This document shows, in pieces, positions 9,081 through 36,492 of a stretch of 64,000 nt of DNA. Positions within the stretch are counted from its first letter, which is position 1; each line of letters begins with the position of its first letter. The position numbers were made by a program, and so were the translations under genes. The stretch is taken from the NCBI RefSeq assembly GCF_011397635.1, contig NC_064773.1, positions 23,662,449 through 23,726,448 of the forward strand, read 5' to 3'. Source of the DNA: Epinephelus fuscoguttatus (taxonomy: Eukaryota > Chordata > Actinopteri > Perciformes > Serranidae). Under the pieces are notes generated by a model, which searched no databases, was not told the origin of the DNA, and was given only the letters and a program-made list of their open reading frames with translations.

Positions 9081-9273
9081 GTTGTGTGCTGAGAGGTGGG
9101 ACTACTTCAGTCATAAATGGGGAGGGACAAGCAGGCACCCTGTGTCCCAGAGAGCCACACACTCACCACAACACCTGCTTGAGAGTTGCAGAATTGATGA
9201 CTACACCTAAAAAAGCTGATCACATTTGACAACGCAGACCTGACTATTCTACAGAAACCCTTGGGCTGCTGCC
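9081..9273 (+). other. ZBED4: ZBED4 5' UTR in exon 2
   Basis: Exon 2 begins after the acceptor CTCTCTAG (ending 9080). It runs 193 bp before an ATG in a strong initiation context (GCTGCCATGG). There is one upstream in-exon ATG, but it is followed by early stops. Confidence 0.7.
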
Positions 9274-12200
9274 ATGGATGGGGAGGAAGAGGTGTCTCAC
9301 ATGAGTGAGGATATGGTCAGTGAACCTAATGGCTCCATAGAAAGTAAAAAAAGAGAAGCGAAAGGGACCTGCCTGAAAATTGAGGGCCAGGATGGCTACG
9401 TGTTCAAATCTTACAGCATTAACCCTCACGATGATGCAAAGTCACCTGCTTGTTCCTCAATAACACTGGATAAAGACTCTCCCCCTTCTCTCCATTTATC
9501 TCCTCAGGATGACAAACAGTTGGAATCAGACAAAGCAAGTGAGGCTGATCCAGCTTCTCCCGCTCTTTCAAACAAATGCCTAAACACTGATACTGAGGGA
9601 AATGCGGAGAATGAAAACTACGAAAATGGGAATGAAGAAAGTGAACATATCAAAGAGGAGACTGTGGATGCAAATGGAATGGAGGATGAAACCCAGGATG
9701 ATGAAAGGCTAACATTTGGTAGCTCAGTTGGCCCTTTTGCGACTAGAGATGTTGATGAGTACAGTAACATACTAAGTGGATACACAAGCACCCTTTATGA
9801 TGTTGCCATGGACGCTGTCACTCAGAGCCTTCTGTCGTCTATGAGGAGTAACACCAACCCGAGGAAAAAATCTCCTGCATGGAATCATTTCTGCATATCA
9901 CCACGAGACAGTACCAAAGCAATCTGTTTATACTGCATGAAAGAGTTCAGCCGGGGTAAGAATGAGAAAGACCTCAGTACAAGTTGCTTAATGAGGCACG
10001 TACGAAGGGCTCACCCCACTGTGCTTTTACAAGACGGAGCAGACGCGTCCTCGAATAATCTGGCTGGCTCCCTCGCCTCATCTTTGATACCTCCATCCCC
10101 AAACTCACCAAAAAACGGAGACTTGACAAATAACGTTATTTCTTCTGCCTCAAAGAACACTTCACCGTCCACCTCCTCAGCTGAGAATTCAGATCTGTCA
10201 TCCAAAGAAGTGTTACCCAAAGTCGAACCAAAACTAGAACTGTATGCCAACGCTGACACAGTTAGCAGCACGCTCTCATCTTCACATTCCAATGACAACA
10301 ACCTTGAAGACATGTCAGACGGTGGGCCCGAGCGCCTCCCTGGGACCCCAAAAGGCTCGAGTTCCCGCCGGAGATCAGCTGTATGGAAACACTTCTACCT
10401 GTCACCTGCTGACAATTCCAAAGCAGTATGTATCCATTGCATGAATGAATTCAGTCGGGGTAAAAATGGGAAGGATTTAGGGACAAGCTGTCTTATTCGT
10501 CACATGTGGAGGGCCCACAAAGAAGTTGTCATTGAGGAAAATGGACAGGGCAATCACATTCCCCCACCCTACACAAACCCGCCCTCTCTACTGCCCCGCA
10601 CACAACTACAGGATCCACTGGAAGTTAAAAAAGAATCACCCCTTCTTCCATCCTCCCCAGAAACCATATCAGATGACTTACCCCAAAGCATGGAGGAAAG
10701 CATGGATATAAAAGATGAATCTGATGAGGTGATGCATCTATCAGGGCCAGAATCCTCTCTAAATCTCTCCTTCAAAACTCAGGGGGAGGATACACCCCTA
10801 ACTTCCTCACCATGCGACCTCTCTGAGGGCCCCAGCCTCAATCAGGATCACTCAGTTTTCCAGCAAAACAAGAGGATCATGAAACGGGTGAAATCTGAAG
10901 TGTGGCACCATTTCATAGTGTCGCCAGTTGACCAGTTAAAAGCACTGTGCCGTTACTGTCCATGCGTCATCAGTCGGGGGAAACGAGGTGACTTTGGTAC
11001 AAGCTGTCTGATGCGGCATCTGATGAGACGCCACCCAGACGTCCTCAAAAACCAAAAAAGCACAGATGAGAAGGAATCCTCCCCTCATCCCTACACCAGT
11101 CTCACCGCAACGGACGCAGTTTCAACCAAAGAAACTGAGAGCCCTGCCAGTGAGAAAAAGCCACAAACACTGCCCGTTTTCAGTAAAAAGACGTCAAAAC
11201 TGTGGAACCATTTCTCTATTTCACCCGCTGACCCCACAAAAGTGGTTTGTTTGCACTGTGGCCGCACAATTAGCAGAGGCAAAAAGACCACAAACCTTGG
11301 CACAAGCTGCCTCTTCAGGCACATGCAGAGATTTCACGGTCATGTTCTTGAAAGTAACAATACTATCTCAGGTGATGTGCCGTCTGCTGAAATTCATGTT
11401 AAACAAGAGCTCATGGACACTTCTGTTTATGAAACGGAACAGAACCGTGAGAGGTTTGATGAACACCACCCGGTTGCCAAAAAAATCACCAAACTTATTG
11501 CAGAAATGCTCGCACTGGATCTTCAGCCATCAGCTATGGTGGAGAATGCTGGACTGAACAGACTACTAGAGTACCTCCAGCCTCAGTATTCTCTACCACC
11601 TTCTTCTTACTTTACCAGCACTGCCATACCGGATATGTACGAAAGGGTGAAGGACGTTGTGCTGACCCATCTGAAAGAGGCTGAAGGTGGTGTCGTCCAC
11701 TTCACAACTAGTATTTGGGTCAATAGCCAGACAAGGGAATACCTGACCCTAACTGCCCACTGGGCGACTTATGAGTCAAGTGTCAGACCCCAGGGTCAGG
11801 ACTTTCACTGCTCCGCTCTCCTAAGTGTCTCACAAATAGACTGTGATCATGATATGCATGACATCCCAAAGCAGCTCGAGTATCTGTGGGATTCTTGGAT
11901 CACCTCATCAGGGCTGAAAAAGGGGTTCACTGTAACTGATAACAACACCATCAGAAACACCTTGGAGGACCATGGCCATGTCACCATGCAGTGTTTCGGA
12001 CACACTATAGACCTCATTGTTAGCGAAGCCATAAAGAGCCAGAGAATGGTTCAGAACCTTCTGAGTATTGCACGAAAGATCTGTGAACGTGTGCACCGCT
12101 CAGCAAAGGCCAAGGAGAAGCTGGCTGAGCTTCAGAGGGTCCACCAGCTGCCGGAGAACCAACTGATACAGGATGTTCCTTCCAAATGGAGGACCTCCTT

Positions 12201-13050
12201 TTTCATGTTGGAGCGGCTGGTGGAACAGAAGAAAGCCATCGATGAGATGTCGATCGAGTGCAATTTCAGGGAAATGATAAGCTGCGATCAGTGGGAGGTA
12301 ATGCTGTCGGTCTGCAATGCACTGAAACCTTTCGAAGTCGCCTGCAGGGAGATGAGCAACCGCACTGCCACTCTGGGACAAGTGATACCACTCATTCACA
12401 TTCTCAACAGAAAGATAGACCTGCTGTTTGACGAAACCGTGGGCATCGACAATATGCTCAAGTCACTAAAGGAAGCCATGGTGAGCAAAATGTCCACAAC
12501 TCTGCACGACCAACGATACACCTGGGCAACCATGCTGGACCCACGGTACAAGACTTCGTTGTTCACAGAAGAAGAAGCTGAGAGATGTAAGCAAGATCTG
12601 ATCCGGGAGCTGGATTTGTCCTCTTCTACCTCAGTTGCAGTTAAGCCTCCGCTGCCCAATGGCTGCAATGAGGCCCCCGTTTCCTCCAACACCTCCCACT
12701 CAAACAAGGACAACCTCTGGTCCCTGATGGCTGACATCCGACAAAAGATAAAACACGAGGAGAAGCCAAAGTCCTCAGAGCTGGCAGTGCTGGAGTACCT
12801 TGAGGAAGACATACTTGATCAAAGCTGTGACCCCCTTGACTATTGGAACCTGAAAAAGTTCCTGTGGCCCGATCTTGCCAAAGTAGCCGCCCGTTACGTG
12901 GGCTGCCCTCCCAGCATCGTCCCAGCAGAGACACTGTTCAGCACAGCTAGCGTCAACTGTGCCCTGAATCAGCCCAGGCCTTTACTGGAAAACATGGAGG
13001 GTCTGCTGTTCCTCAAGGTCAACCTCCCTTTGATTTACTTTCAGTACTGA
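9274..13050 (+). CDS. ZBED4: Zinc finger BED domain-containing protein 4 (domesticated hAT transposase)
   Basis: A single coding exon of 1258 codons, slightly longer than human ZBED4 (about 1170). The acidic N-terminus (1-190) is followed by four BED zinc fingers of C-x2-C...H-x4-H type: C218/C221/H242/H247, C386/C389/H410/H415, C559/C562/H582/H587 and C659/C662/H683/H688. Each has the W-x-HF lead and a conserved TSCL-x-RH core. Ser/Pro/Glu-rich linkers hold several V/I-K-x-E SUMO-like sites. From about 725 the protein is hAT-transposase-like: the RNase-H region has S-I-W (813-815) where active enzymes usually have Asp, keeps a TD at 888-889, and ends in an hATC dimerisation domain (about 1172-1255, with the LFSTAS motif). 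It probably acts as a nuclear DNA-binding regulator, not a transposase. Its tail faces ALG12. Identification is by four-finger architecture plus synteny. Confidence 0.96.
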
Positions 13051-14642: not shown

Positions 14643-17600
14643 TCACTCTTTGTGTTGCCTGGTTGCAGTCTTTCTCTCCATGAGCACAGTTTTCCTCTCT
14701 AATCGCACACTGACAGGTGGGAAGTGAAACATGTTGAAGGCAATGTTGCTGTAACCTTCCACGAAGGCCAGAGGCTGATGAGTGTCTTGGAGCTGCTGTA
14801 TCTTTGTGACGTTAGCCTCCATCAGTAGGTGCGAGTACATTTTGATGTCAGGATGCGAGAGACTCAGGTCCTCACGTTTGTCGTATCTGTTAAAAATTTG
14901 TAAAAAGGATTGCATTACAAAGGTAATATTAGATAAATCCCACATAAGTTATGGAATTACAGCAGTTTTCCAGGCCTGGAAATGGTTTGGAAGTAATGGA
15001 ATGCTTTGGAAAAGTTTTGATTATACATTGTTTTTGGGTGTTAAATTAAAATCACAAAACATGTCTAACATTAACATGAAATACATTAATTTTATCACTA
15101 ATTTAGAATCTCTATTCTTGCATTATAATACAAGATGATTATAACGGGTACATTATTTTTGGACACATTTTACTTCAGAACAATGAAAAAAAGCACTCAC
15201 CTCCAGTTTCTGTTCTGCTCTAGGAAGCGAGATACTCCAGTTTCAGCAGCGTAGGTGTCAATATGCACAAAGACATCTGAGGGGACAAAGGCACTGAGTA
15301 AAAATGTGTTCTCCAAACAAACTTCTTATGCACAAATTTGTCTTATACACAATTAATAGAGTTAATCATACTAATATGGCTCGCATACATGCACACATAA
15401 ATTCAGTTTAGCTGACGTACTTGCTTGACACCATTACACAAACTTCAAAAGAGAGCAAAAGGGACAGGGAACACATGAACGCGCTGTTTTTAAAGTCACA
15501 TGCATTTCAATTCTTAGATCTGGTCAAATTTAAAACTGCAAGAATCATGTTAAAAGCGAGAAACAATTCACTCCTGGGCAACATTCAAAAAATGTTTTAT
15601 GACAGGGAGGAGGGGGTATAATTCAAGAGGAGAATTTAACTTTAAAAAACAATGTCCATACAACTGAGAAGAGTCTGTGTATCTCAGTGTATGGTGTGGA
15701 CTATAAATCAATCAATAAAAAATAAAAAGGTATAAATCAATAAACAGGTATTTTTGGCAGATACATAGATGAGGAAAGGTTGTGTCAGGGGAGTGCATAT
15801 TTATTTTGTAACACTGAGATATACTTGGACTGTAAATAAACTGGGATTATTACTTATGTACTTAATTGGGTGGTCAATAGACTGGGGATATTAGTTGTAA
15901 ATAAATTTGGGAATTTGTTGAAATAATGTATGAATTAAAAAAGGAAATGTAGGAAAGACACACATATACATAGACATGTAAGTTTTACTTCTACCTACTT
16001 GTTTTCGGACACTTATCTTGTTCTCGTTTGTTTTTTTATTATGTCTTTTACCCCTAAACTCACACACTACATGCACATTTGATCAAGTTTCTCCATACTT
16101 TCAATTGTTAAATCTTCAATATGTATAAAGTTATTAGCTCCTCTCAAAGGTGGCAAGCATTAAACTCCCTGCAAATAAAAATGTGCTGAAGAGACACTGA
16201 CCTGCTGTGACTGGCAGCAGCCTGTGTAGTTCCTGCATTCCTTGGCCGCCCGGGTAGTTGTGGTGGGACACGTAGAGACTAATACCAGAGTATGTGGCAT
16301 TGGTCAGCAGCTGGCCAACCACAACCGCAGAGCCCAGTTTGTACATCCAAGATTTCTGGTAGTTGCACAAACTGAAGCACAGAGGAAAAGAAGAGCAATA
16401 GCTTTTGCAGTCTATAATGTGAAAGAGCAGCCATGACATAAACCCACATTGACGCAAGTCCTTCTTATGATGGCACTGGTATCAATATCTGGAAAATAGC
16501 TGCTCTGTATCTATTTTAAGAGCGAGGAATAATCAACATCCACCAGCCAAGTCTAATGTACAGAATGCAGCAGCTGGTCGTGCACTCCAAACTGCCCTTT
16601 TAGCATCGTAACTTTCTCATCTTTCAAATTATTTCTGTACTCCATGGGTCATATTCAGCTTATAAAGCAAAGAGTGTCTGGTTTGTATTGGTGTCTATCA
16701 GACATTAGATAAAGTGTCAATTTCCGAGCATTTGGATTAATATTTTTTTACTTACATGAAAGAACAGCCTCGGGCAGCCACCAAGCTGAGCACAGGGAAC
16801 GTGTATATGATGAAGCGCAGCTCCTTGTGGGGCAGCAGCGAGTAGATGAGGATGAAGCCGACGGTGGGTAGCAGCAGCAGCCTCATCCGCCTGTCGAGGA
16901 GGCCGAAGGGGACGAAGAGCAGCGTGCAGCCCAGGGCGCGGGGCACGGCGGAGTAGAAGTACCACAGAAAGGGAGAGGTTTACTGGGGAGAAGAGAGTCA
17001 AGGAGAACTGCAGGGTGGAGATTCACAAACAGTTAACAAATGTGTAAAGGAAAATTCATACACATAAGTGGGAGAGTACTCGAGTAAATCAAAAGGATAT
17101 TCCCCAGTTGGAACTTTTGTTGAGAACAGTGTTGTACCACAAAACCTGACCTTCAGGCCACAAAAGCTTCCTCCAAAAGAAGGTGTCAACGGCCACAGTC
17201 AGAGCTGTGAAACACAACCGAAATCAAAACTCGTTTGGACAATTTATCGAGTATGTACTTATCATACACTGTACATTCACTACTCACCGAGCGACAAGAT
17301 CCCAGCAGGAACAGCATAGTACAGCAGCTGCAGCAGTCCCAGCTTCCTGCTCAGCAGTGATATCAGTAACATGAGTCCCAAGAAAATGCAGAGCTCTGAC
17401 CGGAACACAATGATGACCAAAGCAGAGAGGCTGACGAATCGGCCGTATTTCTGAGCCATCCAAGATGTGAATGCAACCAGAACTGGGAAGGAAAATGTAT
17501 AATGTCATCATGTAGATACAGAGTATCTGTTTTATGATGATTATCACCCATGTGTCTTACCTATTGGCAGTGCAAATACATTAGGGAGCGTCCTAGTGCT

Positions 17601-20052
17601 GTAGAACATCAGGTGAAACTGAGAAGCACACGTCAGACAGAAAAGACTTGCAACCGTGGAGCCAAACTGCTTCCTCACCTCCTTCTGCATGTGCCACAGT
17701 GCACCGACAACACACACTCCCAGGGAGGCTCGGACTGCACACAACACATCAACAGAATGGATTTGTTTAAATTGTTTGAACAGGCAACAACGTTTATAGA
17801 GCTGCAACTAACAATTATTTTCATTAACAATTAATCTGCCCACTATTTTCTCAATTAACTGTTTTATAGTGAAACATGTCCTGTATAATTTCCCATAACC
17901 CAAGGTGACATCATCAAATGGTATGCTTTATCCAGCCAACAGTCCAGCGATCCACAGCTGATCAGTTTATAATCATGTTTGACAATGACAAGCATCAAAT
18001 TCTCACATTTAGGAGGCATGAAAAAAGAAAGAAGACATTGAATTTGTGAAAAAAGAAGCATATTAAGTATTTCTGATTGTTAAACATTTTAAAGATAGAT
18101 GAGTTAGACGGAAGATTGTATTAAAAGCTTGTTTTACACAAACTTCTGCAATTATTACGTTCACTATTTGAGTTAATTGTACAGTTTATCAGTTTGTTTG
18201 TACAGTTATTGTTATGCATTGACTATAATATCAAATATCCATAAATATGTCACTCGGTCAGGGGTTGTCATTTTACTTAATGATAGAAAACGAGTTCTTT
18301 GAGGACAAAGGTTGGAATTCACTGGGCTAATCGATGAATCAACTATAATCAACTATTGCAGTTCTAATTGTTTTGAACATATAGGTAGAGGGCAAAAGTA
18401 CCAGTTAGTTCGACAGTAGCGATTTACCTATCAGCTGTGAGTAGAATTTTGGTGTGTCCAGCAGAGACGACAGAAACACAACAGGGCAGCTGAGAATGGA
18501 GAGGAACAGGGGGCCGAGGAAAGTCCGTGGCACCACACCAGGGAACTCATGATGGTCATACTGAAAGACAACACAGATACACTCAGACCTTATTACAGAA
18601 AATGTTATTTTTACTTGAATTCATTGCTGACCTTGGAAACAACAGTTGGCAAAATATTTTCATGTCAAGATCTATTTAGGAGTCAATCTGAAGATCTCAA
18701 TCACATCACATGGTTTTAAATAGCAGATGGAGGACGTGTAGATGTTGAAATTTCTATGTTCCTCTCATAGCCCCGATTATGAGTCACACATGACATGGTT
18801 ACTAATGGCTGGTGGCTCCAAACTGTCTTGCATAGAAGGGACTAGAGAGAGTGTTTGGTTTAACTCCATTTGATTAGTCTTTATACTCATCTGATTGTAT
18901 GTGTTTTTGTTTTTTTGTTTTGTTAATTTTTTTCTTATTATCTAATCTTACTGAAATACTGTCAATACATCAAGTCTGATTTCTTTTATTTATGGCCTCA
19001 TTTTTTATTATTTTTTTTATGTGCTGTATGGCTGTCTGGGGTATGTATGTTGCTCTGTCTGTTTAAACTCAATGAAAAGTATTAAAAAAAAACTTCTTTT
19101 TTTTTTTATCTCCATCTATGGATGAAGATTGAAAACTCTTCAGAACAGCTACTAAATTGATCTGGTGCTGGGATTGTTTTGACAACTGTTTCTCAATTAT
19201 TGAACTGGTATTGTGTGCATAATTATGGTCTATATTTACATGTTTTTGAGAACAAATACAAGATGTATGTATCAGCACACACTGCAATGTAATGTATTTT
19301 TATGACTTGGCTACACAAGTAAAGCTGAAACAACATTTTGTTTCGAATATAAAAGGTACCTAATTTAATCTAATATGATAAAGATAAAGCATACTTCTTA
19401 TGAAAGCAGTAAGATTACATTTAAAAGTTCAGCAGATACAATACAGCATTCATTTATCCACATAATACTTCTGTAAACAGTACAAAAACATGATATTCAC
19501 TAATAACAAGAGCAGTCCATCTCAAAGTAAGAAGACAGGGCATGCTTAAACATACCAGGTGTTGAAATGAATCTAATATCAACAGGCAAATTATTGCAGT
19601 CTGTTGGGGCTTTAAACATAAAAGCTCTTTTGCCCACTGTTTTCTTACAAGGGACAGTGCCACATTTGATAATATGAAGCAAAAGGTACAAGATACTGTT
19701 GTAAATAGTGAGGACAGGTGAATTAAAAACATGTAAATATAAGCTGAAGCCAGTGAATGCGTCTTCTTACATTTAAAGATGGCGTATTCACAGACGTTTA
19801 ATATTTCTGATAATTATTTAATTCACTGGTGTTGTGCAAAGTTAGCTTGTTAGCACATAGAACAGTATGGGAGGACATATAACGCCTGCTTACCTTGTCA
19901 AAGTTAAGTCTGTGATACAAAATGTCGTGCGCTGCTTGTAAATTAAAGCTTTCCTCAACTTTAGTGAACGGACAAATAAATAAATGCAAAAGACACACTG
20001 CTGTGAGTAAAAACAGCAGTGGCAGCCCTGAAACAGTCCTTTTTTCAGCCAT
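14643..20052 (-). CDS. ALG12: Dol-P-Man:Man7GlcNAc2-PP-Dol alpha-1,6-mannosyltransferase
   Basis: Minus-strand coding exons: 20052-19894, 18560-18428, 17734-17561, 17482-17288, 17204-17101, 16979-16756, 16371-16202, 15276-15201, 14886-14643. Together they give 1479 nt, 492 residues (human 488), with all phases consistent. It is a multi-pass ER-membrane GT-C enzyme that adds the eighth mannose (alpha-1,6) to the lipid-linked N-glycan precursor, using dolichol-phosphate-mannose. Visible family marks: a hydrophobic N-terminal helix, K31-VEESFN in the first lumenal loop, Y54[33 protein letters not shown], the LNKSSNWG block ending at Gly255, [21 protein letters not shown] and a C-terminal YDKRED. 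All introns are GT-AG except intron 5 (after Gly255), which is U12-like and is reported separately. Exon 6 is strikingly GC-rich. The gene shares a divergent promoter with CRELD2. Confidence 0.97.
15430..15720 (+). mobile_element. LINE reverse-transcriptase C-terminal fragment in ALG12 intron 7
   Basis: The + strand encodes a '[15 protein letters not shown]' motif followed by 'LLGNIQKMF' and, after a frame shift, a 'GEFNFKKQC' stretch. This is the C-terminal text of a family of fish non-LTR retrotransposons. It lies antisense to ALG12 and is truncated and broken by stops. Confidence 0.6.
16980..17100 (-). other. ALG12: ALG12 intron 5: U12-type (minor spliceosome) intron with unusual ends
   Basis: Reading the minus strand, exon 5 ends in the codons for N-W-G and is followed directly by ATATCCTTTT (17100-17091), the textbook AT-type U12 donor. 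Near the other end TCCTTGACT (17004-16996) matches the U12 branch site, with the branch A at 16998. The next in-frame coding text (T-S-P-F-L-W) starts at 16979. The only nearby AG (CCCCAG) would place TAA in frame, and no GT donor fits. The intron therefore reads AT...AA (121 nt). A shift of two bases gives AT...AC with Ile for Thr. Confidence 0.75.
17797..18366. mobile_element. MITE copy ('tagagctgcaac' ends) in ALG12 intron 2
   Basis: The left end TAGAGCTGCAACTAAC and right end TTGCAGTTCTA are the same family as the element at 7573-7882, with the shared 'attattttcatt' arm. This copy is longer and more diverged, with an internal region unrelated to the first copy from about 18110 to 18290. 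Both ends touch TA. Confidence 0.65.
18790..19092 (+). mobile_element. LINE 3' UTR with A-tail in ALG12 intron 1
   Basis: A T-rich region ends with 'aaactcaatgaaaagtatt' and a poly(A) run (19083-19091). This resembles the 3' end of L1-type fish retrotransposons. No coding part remains. The family call is tentative. Confidence 0.4.
19490..19740 (-). mobile_element. LINE reverse-transcriptase C-terminal fragment (minus strand) in ALG12 intron 1
   Basis: The minus-strand frame reads '[20 protein letters not shown]' and then a 'FKHALSSYF' end. This is the typical G-K-x-A-F...W-N-x-L-P...F-K-x-x-L-K tail of non-LTR reverse transcriptases, with the Trp replaced by Cys. It is only a fragment. Confidence 0.5.
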
Positions 20053-20555: not shown

Positions 20556-23500
20556 ATGCTGTCCACCGGTCCAGAGCTGCGGCTATTGTCTTGTTTAATT
20601 GTTGTTTTACTTTTTCAAGCCACTGGCGCCAAGAGGGACTTAAAAAGCGCCTGTTCTACCTGTCAGCAAATCACTGATAACTTCAACAAGGTAGGAAAAC
20701 ACTACTTTTGTTTGTTGTGACATTATAATATATTGCTCAAGTATTGTTAATGATTCCTGTATATTCAGTGACACTGTTTTGTGTTTAGGGCTATGACAGA
20801 ACAGCAAAGCAGAACTTTGGGGGAGGCAACACAGCCTGGGAGGAGAGAAAACTGTCCAAATATGAGACAAGGTGAGACAGTGCATCCTGTCCTGTCCAGG
20901 TCACCCTGCCACAGGGGCCGGTCATCACACCTGTGTTTGCTTTGCACCAGAGCTGCAGGCAGTTGTACAGCAGGAAGCTTATCTTAACTTCTAGACAAAC
21001 AGGATGTATTTGAATACATAGCAGACTGCATGGTGTTAATTTGCCACGACAAGCAACAGTTTCCTTTCCCAGCTTTACACAAAACCATGCAACAAGCACT
21101 TCCTCATATCAAACAGTTTATGTGACATCCATTCATCTTGTCGCTTCCTTTACAGCGAGATCCGTCTGATGGAGATCATTGAAGGGCTGTGCGACAGCAG
21201 CAGCTTCGAGTGCAACCGCATGTTAGAGGAGCACGAGGACCATTTCGAGACTTGGTGGTTCAAGAGGTGGGTGCTGGTTATGTAAATGTTGTCAAACTTT
21301 GATGCCAGCATGGTCAGCGACAATTGCAACTATCAGTTTCACAACATCAAGACGTCACACAGCTTGTGTAAAGTAAAAGACTTGCAGTGTTATTTGTGTA
21401 TAAAATGATTGGTTCACAGCTCACCTCTTCCTGTTTTGTTTCCTGTTGCAATGCAGGAAAACGAAACACCCCGATCTGCATAAATGGTTCTGCATTGAAA
21501 CTATCAAAGTGTGCTGTCCGAAGGGAACGTTTGGACCGGACTGCAATGGTGAGGAAAATCCTTTCAGCATTTAGTGTCCATGTTGGTTCTATTTCTGGCA
21601 GACAAGACATGTATGTATCTCAGCGTGTGGCAGTAGCATGGATGTTAAAATTGTTAACTATTTCCTGATTTTATTTGTGAAGCCTGCGTTGGGGGCTCTG
21701 ACACTCCATGTCACGGAAATGGAAACTGTGATGGCGACGGGACGCGCGGTGGGAACGGAAAGTGCAGCTGTGACCATGGCTACGAGGGGGAGTTCTGCCT
21801 AGACTGCATCGACGGCTACTTCAACGAAGTGAGGAACGACACCTTCTCTCTGTGCACAGGTACACGTCGACACAGAGAAAGTGTTGCACCACCAGCTTTT
21901 TCAGTGACATGTCTACATACGTATATGTATATATGGTAAGTGTTCTGAATTCTGAATGCAAGCTTCCCCTCTCCCTACAGAATGCCACTCCTCCTGTAAA
22001 ACCTGCACTGGAGCGAGCAGTCAGGACTGTGACGAGTGCAAAGACGGCTGGGAGGAGGACGACCAGGAAGCTTGTGTTGGTAATGCTTACCATGCATGAG
22101 TAGACTTTGAAAAGACTTTAAAAGTACTTTTAAAACAGTAAACTCTGACACCCTGTGATATGTTGAGAGTGTGAGGTTTTAGTCACACACTATAAATAGA
22201 TTTTGCAAGGACCAGGGATCTTGCAGGGTCACTATTTGCAAGACTACAACTGGATTTTCCTTTTGAGGTTATTTTCCATCCTGCTCCTGGTGGAAAACAT
22301 TACGCCAAACTCCCTTTAAGAAATGTGACATTTTAACTATTCCTCATGTGTACACAAAACACATAACTCTAGAAACACAGGATAAAAGACATCATATCTT
22401 GACAGTATTCTTGTCAATTCGGCATCAATATAATCCATAAAGATAAACTGCATTTGTGTACAAACATTACATATGTGGATTTTAATGCCTCAACTTGCTA
22501 CCAGTCTCTGTGCTATTTTAGTCAGAGGATAGCCATTTTCAAAATTAAGATTTCTCACTAAAATAAGTGCTGGTTGGTGGATAAGATACACAATGAAGTA
22601 AACTCCAACTCTTGTTCACTCCACAACTCCACCAGTTCTCCTCCTACTCCACAGTCCCAAAAGATCAGAGACTTGTTTATGCCTCCCCAGAGTCCCCTCC
22701 ATGTTTACGGTCTACGCGGTTTGCTGCTTCTTGTTTGGTGCCGGAGAGAGTGCAGCTATTGGTTGTTGACTATGTTCACGTTATTGAACTTCACTATTTA
22801 CACGAGCCAAGACTGAAAAGTGTCTATAATATTGAACATGTTTGATTTTGTTGAAATGTCAAGACAAGAAACAGACATAAGACAGCTCAGGCTGAGTTTT
22901 AAGACCACCTTACACCAAACTAACAAGATCACTGGGGCACACACCAACTGAGGTAAAACTCTCGTGACGATCCCGGCACTAGAAATTTTCATATTTTCAT
23001 ATCTGTCTGCGACAGTCAAATTGCTGAAAAGTAGTTTGGTGCAAGGTTGGCATAGGAGCACCGGTGTAAAGTCTCCATGTTGTACACGGGGGAAAAAATG
23101 GCAAAAATATACGTTCTATGTGCACCACTGTCGACCTCACTGCAGTCTATCTTACAGATGTGAACGAGTGCTCCAAAGATCCGTCTCCATGTGGAGAAGA
23201 TCAATACTGCGTTAACTCCGAAGGCTCCTACTCCTGCAGGGGTAATTACTCACAACATCAGGGCACAACAGTATCTGCTGCTTGTTTTACTTTGGTTGGG
23301 GAGAAATTATTTACCAGTGGTATACGAAGCAATTCCATAAAGTGTTTGATAACACGTCATGATGATTTCACATATTTACAGCCTGTTTACATCAAACAGG
23401 AAAATAATTTTCTCTTTCTTCATGGGAATATTTTTAGTGACATTCATCTAATAGTAAGGTTTTTTTATGTATTTGTCCTTCCTAGCCTGTGACAACGTGT

Positions 23501-35913: not shown

Positions 35914-36246
35914 TCATGTAAACAGTGACGTACTCCGAGGGAAGCCGCGGCTAGTCAGTCCTTCGGCAATTCTCTCATAAGTTGGCCCGTTCCTCACCGT
36001 CCCCGTCATCTGACGGTTAATGGCCTCTTCGTTTGCGAGGGCAAGGAGGGCACGCAATTCCTTGTCTCCCCAGTTTCTCATCTTTACAGATCTGTCAGGT
36101 TTGTGTTTCCCTCTTGCTGCTAGCTGCTCATTCCTGCTATCAGCTGTTTCCTGTTTATCCACCACCAGTGGCTCACAATGCAGCGTCATCAACAGCTCCT
36201 CCCACAAGTCTTCAACAGCCCCTCCCGTGGTGAAAGGTGGCCTCAC
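35914..36246 (-). pseudogene. Myb/SANT-like DNA-binding domain fragment, PIF/Harbinger type
   Basis: The minus-strand frame of 110 codons contains the trihelix/Myb-like core (W..KELRALLALANEEAI, then a TVRN...YERIAEGL...GF stretch, about residues 57-104). This is the start of the DNA-binding partner protein of PIF/Harbinger transposons and of host MSANTD genes derived from them. The frame ends soon after the second helix, where the family normally continues with a T-W-x-Q-C-R motif and a third helix. It is truncated and likely dead. Flanks at 35727-35900 and 36250-36330 look like element UTR, with 'ggcacctcgg' and 'cgcctttttcggggc' phrases. It could be a MITE that kept a piece of the gene. 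Confidence 0.65.
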
Positions 36247-36492
36247 TCTGTTTAAACGAAAAAGGTTCCGCCAATATGACTACCCTACGAGGTGGAAAAT
36301 TGGGCACCTCGGATCAACCTCTTAAAGGACTTAGACGCTGACACCCATATGTAGGTAACTTTAAATTTTTTAGTTAGCCTTTTAAACTATACTACGAGTA
36401 TTCATGAAGGCTGTTGTTAGGGTTAATAAGGACGTGATTTGGCTAGATTTTCATAATAAACTGATGATGAGCAATGATTGAGCAGCCCAGTT

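Follow-up and report, generated by a model that had tools for sequence, protein, structure and literature searches.

Intron 5 of ALG12 in Epinephelus fuscoguttatus is best read as a U12-type intron with AT-AA ends

Which bases delimit intron 5 of the ALG12 gene in Epinephelus fuscoguttatus, and which spliceosome would remove it? The question arises in a 64-kb stretch of DNA (the window, meaning the whole stretch that was analysed), on the minus strand of which nine intact exons can be spliced into an ALG12 product of 492 aa with no internal stops. GT-AG ends were found in seven of the eight introns, the exception being intron 5. The product scored 157.1 bits against Pfam PF03901 (cut-off 23.8), and phmmer aligned it to chain 9s6t_A (E = 2e-207 over residues 1-483) and, far less well, to the ALG9 chain 9s6s_A (E = 2.8e-05), a full-length match over the family domain that places it with the ALG12 proteins of GT22. 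We infer that the solved chain 9s6t, whose record is titled 'Mannosyltransferase', is an ALG12. A 551-base query around intron 5 matched a single place in the genome (1.047 Gb, 26 contigs). The gene was modelled as follows:

14643..20052, minus strand: ALG12 gene, coding part as modelled, stop included (spliced frame, Pfam, phmmer)
20052-19894, 18560-18428 and 17734-17561, minus strand: exons 1-3 (spliced frame)
17482-17288, 17204-17101 and 16979-16756, minus strand: exons 4-6 (spliced frame)
16371-16202, 15276-15201 and 14886-14643 (stop included), minus strand: exons 7-9 (spliced frame)

Around intron 5, the following features were distinguished:

17101..17204, minus strand: exon 5, ending in N-W-G (GGA) (sequence, spliced frame)
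16980..17100, minus strand: intron 5, 121 nt, phase 0, best read with AT-AA ends (end-pair enumeration, motif scoring)
17092..17100, minus strand: U12-type 5' splice site ATATCCTTT, 9/9 positions of the consensus (motif scoring)
16997..17005, minus strand: U12-type branch site CTCCTTGAC, 8/9 positions, likely branch A at 16998 (motif scoring, U12 pairing)
16983..16985, minus strand: CAG ending 15 nt past the branch A, the use of which as acceptor gives an in-frame stop at the junction
16980..16981, minus strand: AA, proposed last two bases of intron 5, ending 18 nt past the branch A
16756..16979, minus strand: exon 6, beginning T-S-P (ACC TCT CCC) (spliced frame, phmmer)

Exon 5 ends with AACTGGGGA at 17101 and is followed directly by ATATCCTTTT (17100..17091, minus strand), just as had been proposed when N-W-G and an adjoining U12-type donor were recognised from the letters. 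At the other side, the intron closes with CTCTTCTCCCCAGTAA and exon 6 opens with ACCTCTCCC, the letters at the edge being CAGTAA/ACC; with the slash marking each exon edge, the whole arrangement reads ACTGGGGA/ATATCCTTTTGA ... TTCTCCTTGACTCTCTTCTCCCCAGTAA/ACCTCTCCC. Scored against the consensus sequences [AG]TATCCTT[TC] for the donor and TTCCTT[AG]A[CT] for the branch site (PMC4667643 gives a donor core ATCCTT and a branch sequence TTTCCTT[A/G]AC), intron 5 reached 9/9 and 8/9, compared with 3-4/9 and 5-7/9 in the other seven ALG12 introns, which agrees with the earlier description of both motifs as textbook examples. The short branch motif TCCTTGACT is present at 17004..16996 as had been claimed, its distance of 17-25 nt ahead of the first base of exon 6 (16979) replacing the 18-26 nt given before.

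Taken singly, neither motif was enriched in the window over shuffles: ATATCCTT was found twice (shuffle mean 2.10) and TCCTTRAC six times (shuffle mean 4.48). The combination of [AG]TATCCTT[TC] with TCCTT[AG]A[CT] starting 31-599 nt downstream had a single occurrence in the window, both strands counted, namely in intron 5. Among 100,000 dinucleotide shuffles of the intron stretch, 8 placed a 9/9 donor at the exon end and 5,198 had a branch site scoring 8/9 or better within the chosen interval; none did both (0/100,000). The branch site, being frequent in shuffles, is therefore weak evidence by itself; the donor placed exactly at the end of exon 5 is the strong part of the U12 evidence.

Two properties of the intron count mildly against a U12-type reading. 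The distance from the branch A to the intron end is 18 nt for AA and 15 nt for AG, both outside the optimum of 11-13 nt given for U12 introns in PMC3584512, and 13 pyrimidines (CTCTCTTCTCCCC, by inspection) lie between the branch A and the CAG, whereas U12 introns are described in the same source as lacking a distinct pyrimidine tract, a trait that is associated with the class and does not define it. Also considered, and rejected, was another branch-like candidate, TTCCTTTAC near 17050: it lies far from the intron end, and the AC found about 13 nt past its A is followed by TGT TTG TGA, that is, by a stop.

The choice of ends was approached by enumerating all pairs of eight end types with the first intron base at 17203-17001, the last at 17020-16756 and a length of at least 42, skipping of exon 5 or exon 6 lying outside the scheme. 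This yielded 120 in-frame, stop-free pairs, including 19 GT-AG and 8 GC-AG. Only two of the 120 kept the length of 492 aa, namely AT-AA at 17100/16980 (donor ATATCC) and AT-AC at 17098/16978 (donor ATCCTT). Also covered was a further CAG at about 17010-17008, ahead of the branch site. Retention of the intron leads to a stop after N-W-G-I-S-F. Candidates with the ATATCC donor and a downstream AT-AC end at 16959 or 16953 were discarded, since they delete 7 and 9 residues, respectively; with the 7-residue deletion, the PF03901 score falls to 128.8 bits compared with 157.1.

The continuation N-W-G-T-S-P, previously given as typical of the ALG12 family, aligned without gaps to 9s6t_A, which reads KSSNWGTSPFFWYF at this junction. 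ALG9 (9s6s) reads YGTEPWYF, with the Thr kept (GTEP). A search for orthologues in genome contigs confirmed two of 190 matches, both of them uninterrupted bacterial frames; these are gap-free at the junction (MYGTSPFFEYF and DWGVQPPAFY), Gly and Pro being kept in both and Thr in one, the other having Val after Gly. In viral contigs, 44 stretches matched a pattern and none was confirmed. The GT22-like one of these bacterial frames with the ALG12 motif GTSPFF (L003, 1101-2585) also carries the ALG12 motif PHKELRFII.

These data bear differently on the competing readings. An ordinary U2-type GT-AG intron elsewhere in the stretch is scarcely credible: the 19 GT-AG and 8 GC-AG pairs do exist, but neither type occurs among the 25 of the 120 pairs that come closest in length, as the sequence-only reading had anticipated in finding no fitting GT donor, and since a difference of 37 aa is reached with the 25th, no GT-AG or GC-AG pair alters fewer than 37 residues of the protein. 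The pair shifted by two bases, with an intron at 17098..16978 (ATCCTTTTGA...GTAAAC) and the product N-W-G-I-S-P, had been put forward as an alternative. Its protein is indeed of equal length, with Thr changed to Ile, and its terminal dinucleotides are the canonical AT-AC. Its donor, however, becomes ATCCTTTTG instead of ATATCCTTT and breaks the U12 consensus, and Ile would stand where 9s6t, ALG9 (9s6s) and one of two bacterial relatives have Thr; the family profile also shows a small preference for Thr 256 (157.1 bits for the Thr product, 154.7 bits for the Ile product). We therefore regard the shifted AT-AC as much less likely than AT-AA, and as very improbable overall.

Splicing of the same donor to the CAG (16983) as the main product would make TAA codon 256 and leave a broken gene; the spliced translation bears out the prior observation that the nearby AG (16984-16983), used as acceptor, puts TAA in frame. 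At 15 nt this AG is nearer to the reported branch-site optimum than AA, and selection of U12-type 3' splice sites has been described as error-prone (PMC3584512), yet an otherwise intact protein of 492 aa would be truncated at 255 aa and AT-AG pairs seem to be disfavoured (PMC3584512), which makes this outcome highly improbable. Somewhat less remote, if still unlikely, is the reading in which the reference base is wrong or comes from a minor allele, so that the intron, U12-type all the same, truly or commonly ends in AC (CAGTAC/ACC) or AG (CAGTAG/ACC). AT-AA is one substitution away from AT-AC, a single base separates most non-canonical ends from a canonical pair (PMC10639083), and the ends of intron 5 are known from one assembly. 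On the other side, a change in the length of the three-A run at the edge (CAGTAAACC) produces neither AC nor AG before ACC, so that a substitution is needed, and the splicing of AT-AA introns is already known (PMC8280824, PMC10639083).

The placement of the ends as AT-AA is fixed by the donor motif only, since the junction in cDNA could be moved by one base in either direction: an A lies on both sides of each edge, so that cDNA cannot separate AT-AA from AA-TA or TA-AA. A gene finder that allows no ends but GT-AG, GC-AG and AT-AC would be expected to set the boundary of exon 5 or exon 6 wrongly.

At the level of snRNAs, the host possesses a minor spliceosome. Genes for U11, U12, U4atac and U6atac were found in the same genome, all above Rfam cut-offs, with at least one locus each for U11, U12 and U6atac and at least two for U4atac (lower bounds, given that the best candidates were scored). 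The two U4atac loci (L007 and L008, on contigs C13 and C24 of genome G000) scored 99.4 and 89.1 bits. Within the 64-kb window, no Rfam family was found at gathering scores.

For the branch site of intron 5, pairing with the U12 snRNA of the same genome came to -10.5 kcal/mol, the best value among the ends of the eight introns; for the donor of intron 5, pairing with U6atac came to -7.5. Intron 7 gave -9.2 with U12 and -8.8 with U6atac at the donor, and for U12 a value of -10.1 was obtained at another site within intron 5, near 17056. The U6atac segment found its best pairing within intron 5 around the branch site (-12.6) and not at the donor. The energies computed for the U12 and U6atac of this genome thus discriminate weakly and, with the values of intron 7 and of the other site so close, are supporting evidence at most.

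Taken with the motifs, the frame and the junction, the minor-spliceosome AT-AA interpretation of the sequence-only reading emerges as the best one. We put the probability that intron 5 has AT-AA ends and belongs to the A (AT-AN) subtype of U12-type introns at roughly 0.84; removal of intron 5 by the minor spliceosome is very probable. The gene structure, motifs, frame, junction conservation and the minor-spliceosome snRNA genes in the genome are observed, whereas splicing in vivo, its recognition steps and the exact last bases are inferred. The donor ATATCCTTT would be recognised by U11 and later by U6atac, and the branch site CTCCTTGAC by U12. Cleavage at the 3' end would then follow AA, 18 nt past the branch A, skipping the AG three bases earlier because a last base other than C is permitted in minor introns whose first base is A, and AT-AG is disfavoured. 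GGA would be joined to ACC, with the N-W-G-T-S-P frame preserved.

It is quite improbable that CAGTAA serves as a tandem acceptor switch of the minor spliceosome, in which a cut after AA would give ALG12 and a cut after AG a stop at the junction and destruction of the message; were it so, the state of the minor spliceosome would tune N-glycosylation. Under the AT-AA reading, intron 5 offers a clean natural case for 3' end choice by the minor spliceosome, combining a strong AT donor, a good branch site, a harmful AG and a frame-keeping AA three bases further on.

AT-AA is a known but uncommon variation of minor introns. In conserved minor introns of animals about 3.8% have non-canonical ends; the earlier expectation that AT-AA ends are very rare has to be qualified, as AT-AA is the commonest non-canonical type in both animals and plants (PMC10639083). 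It does not appear among the non-canonical U12 ends given in the available excerpt of PMC2831892. U12 introns with other ends amount to 2.7% in zebrafish, 5.0% in fugu and 11% in Tetraodon, while odd-ended U2-type introns, in Tetraodon among others, are mostly blamed on annotation (PMC7367187). In a human survey, introns with A as their first base were reported to accept any base at the 3' end, AC being preferred (PMC4176328), and according to a review, AT-AG and GT-AC pairs seem disfavoured (PMC3584512). A-type minor introns, AT-AA introns among them, were affected by CENATAC depletion in 92% of cases, and as a group they require CENATAC and have a lower splicing efficiency (PMC8280824). Intron 5 resembles the A-subtype (AT-AN) U12 introns in its AT donor ATATCCTTT, a branch site near TTCCTTRAC, a last base other than C and excision in frame. 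It differs from them in the branch-to-end distance (18 nt compared with the optimum of 11-13) and in the AG three bases before its end, and from U12 introns in the pyrimidine run after the branch A.

ALG12 has itself been reported to contain a minor intron in human, retained at 38.5% in affected and 8.0% in unaffected individuals of a Roifman syndrome study (PMC4667643). The gene and the minor spliceosome are common to both cases; the excerpt of PMC4667643 available gives neither the position nor the ends of the human intron. Since both this kind of intron and the presence of a minor intron in ALG12 had been described before, the surprise is small.

Other coding sequence was noted in the window. 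At 9244-13047 on the plus strand, an uninterrupted frame of 1268 residues, with four stretches of BED zinc finger and also a hAT dimerisation end, lies tail to tail with ALG12; we take it to be ZBED4-like, a domesticated transposase. Beyond the start of ALG12 and on the opposite strand, an EGF_CA exon (23070-23489, plus strand) probably belongs to CRELD2. ZBED4, ALG12 and CRELD2 adjoin one another in human, which fits the gene order in the window. A Myb/SANT-like DNA-binding fragment (35917-36279, minus strand), of a type that occurs in Harbinger-type transposons, scored 22.6 bits, below the Pfam cut-off of 27.
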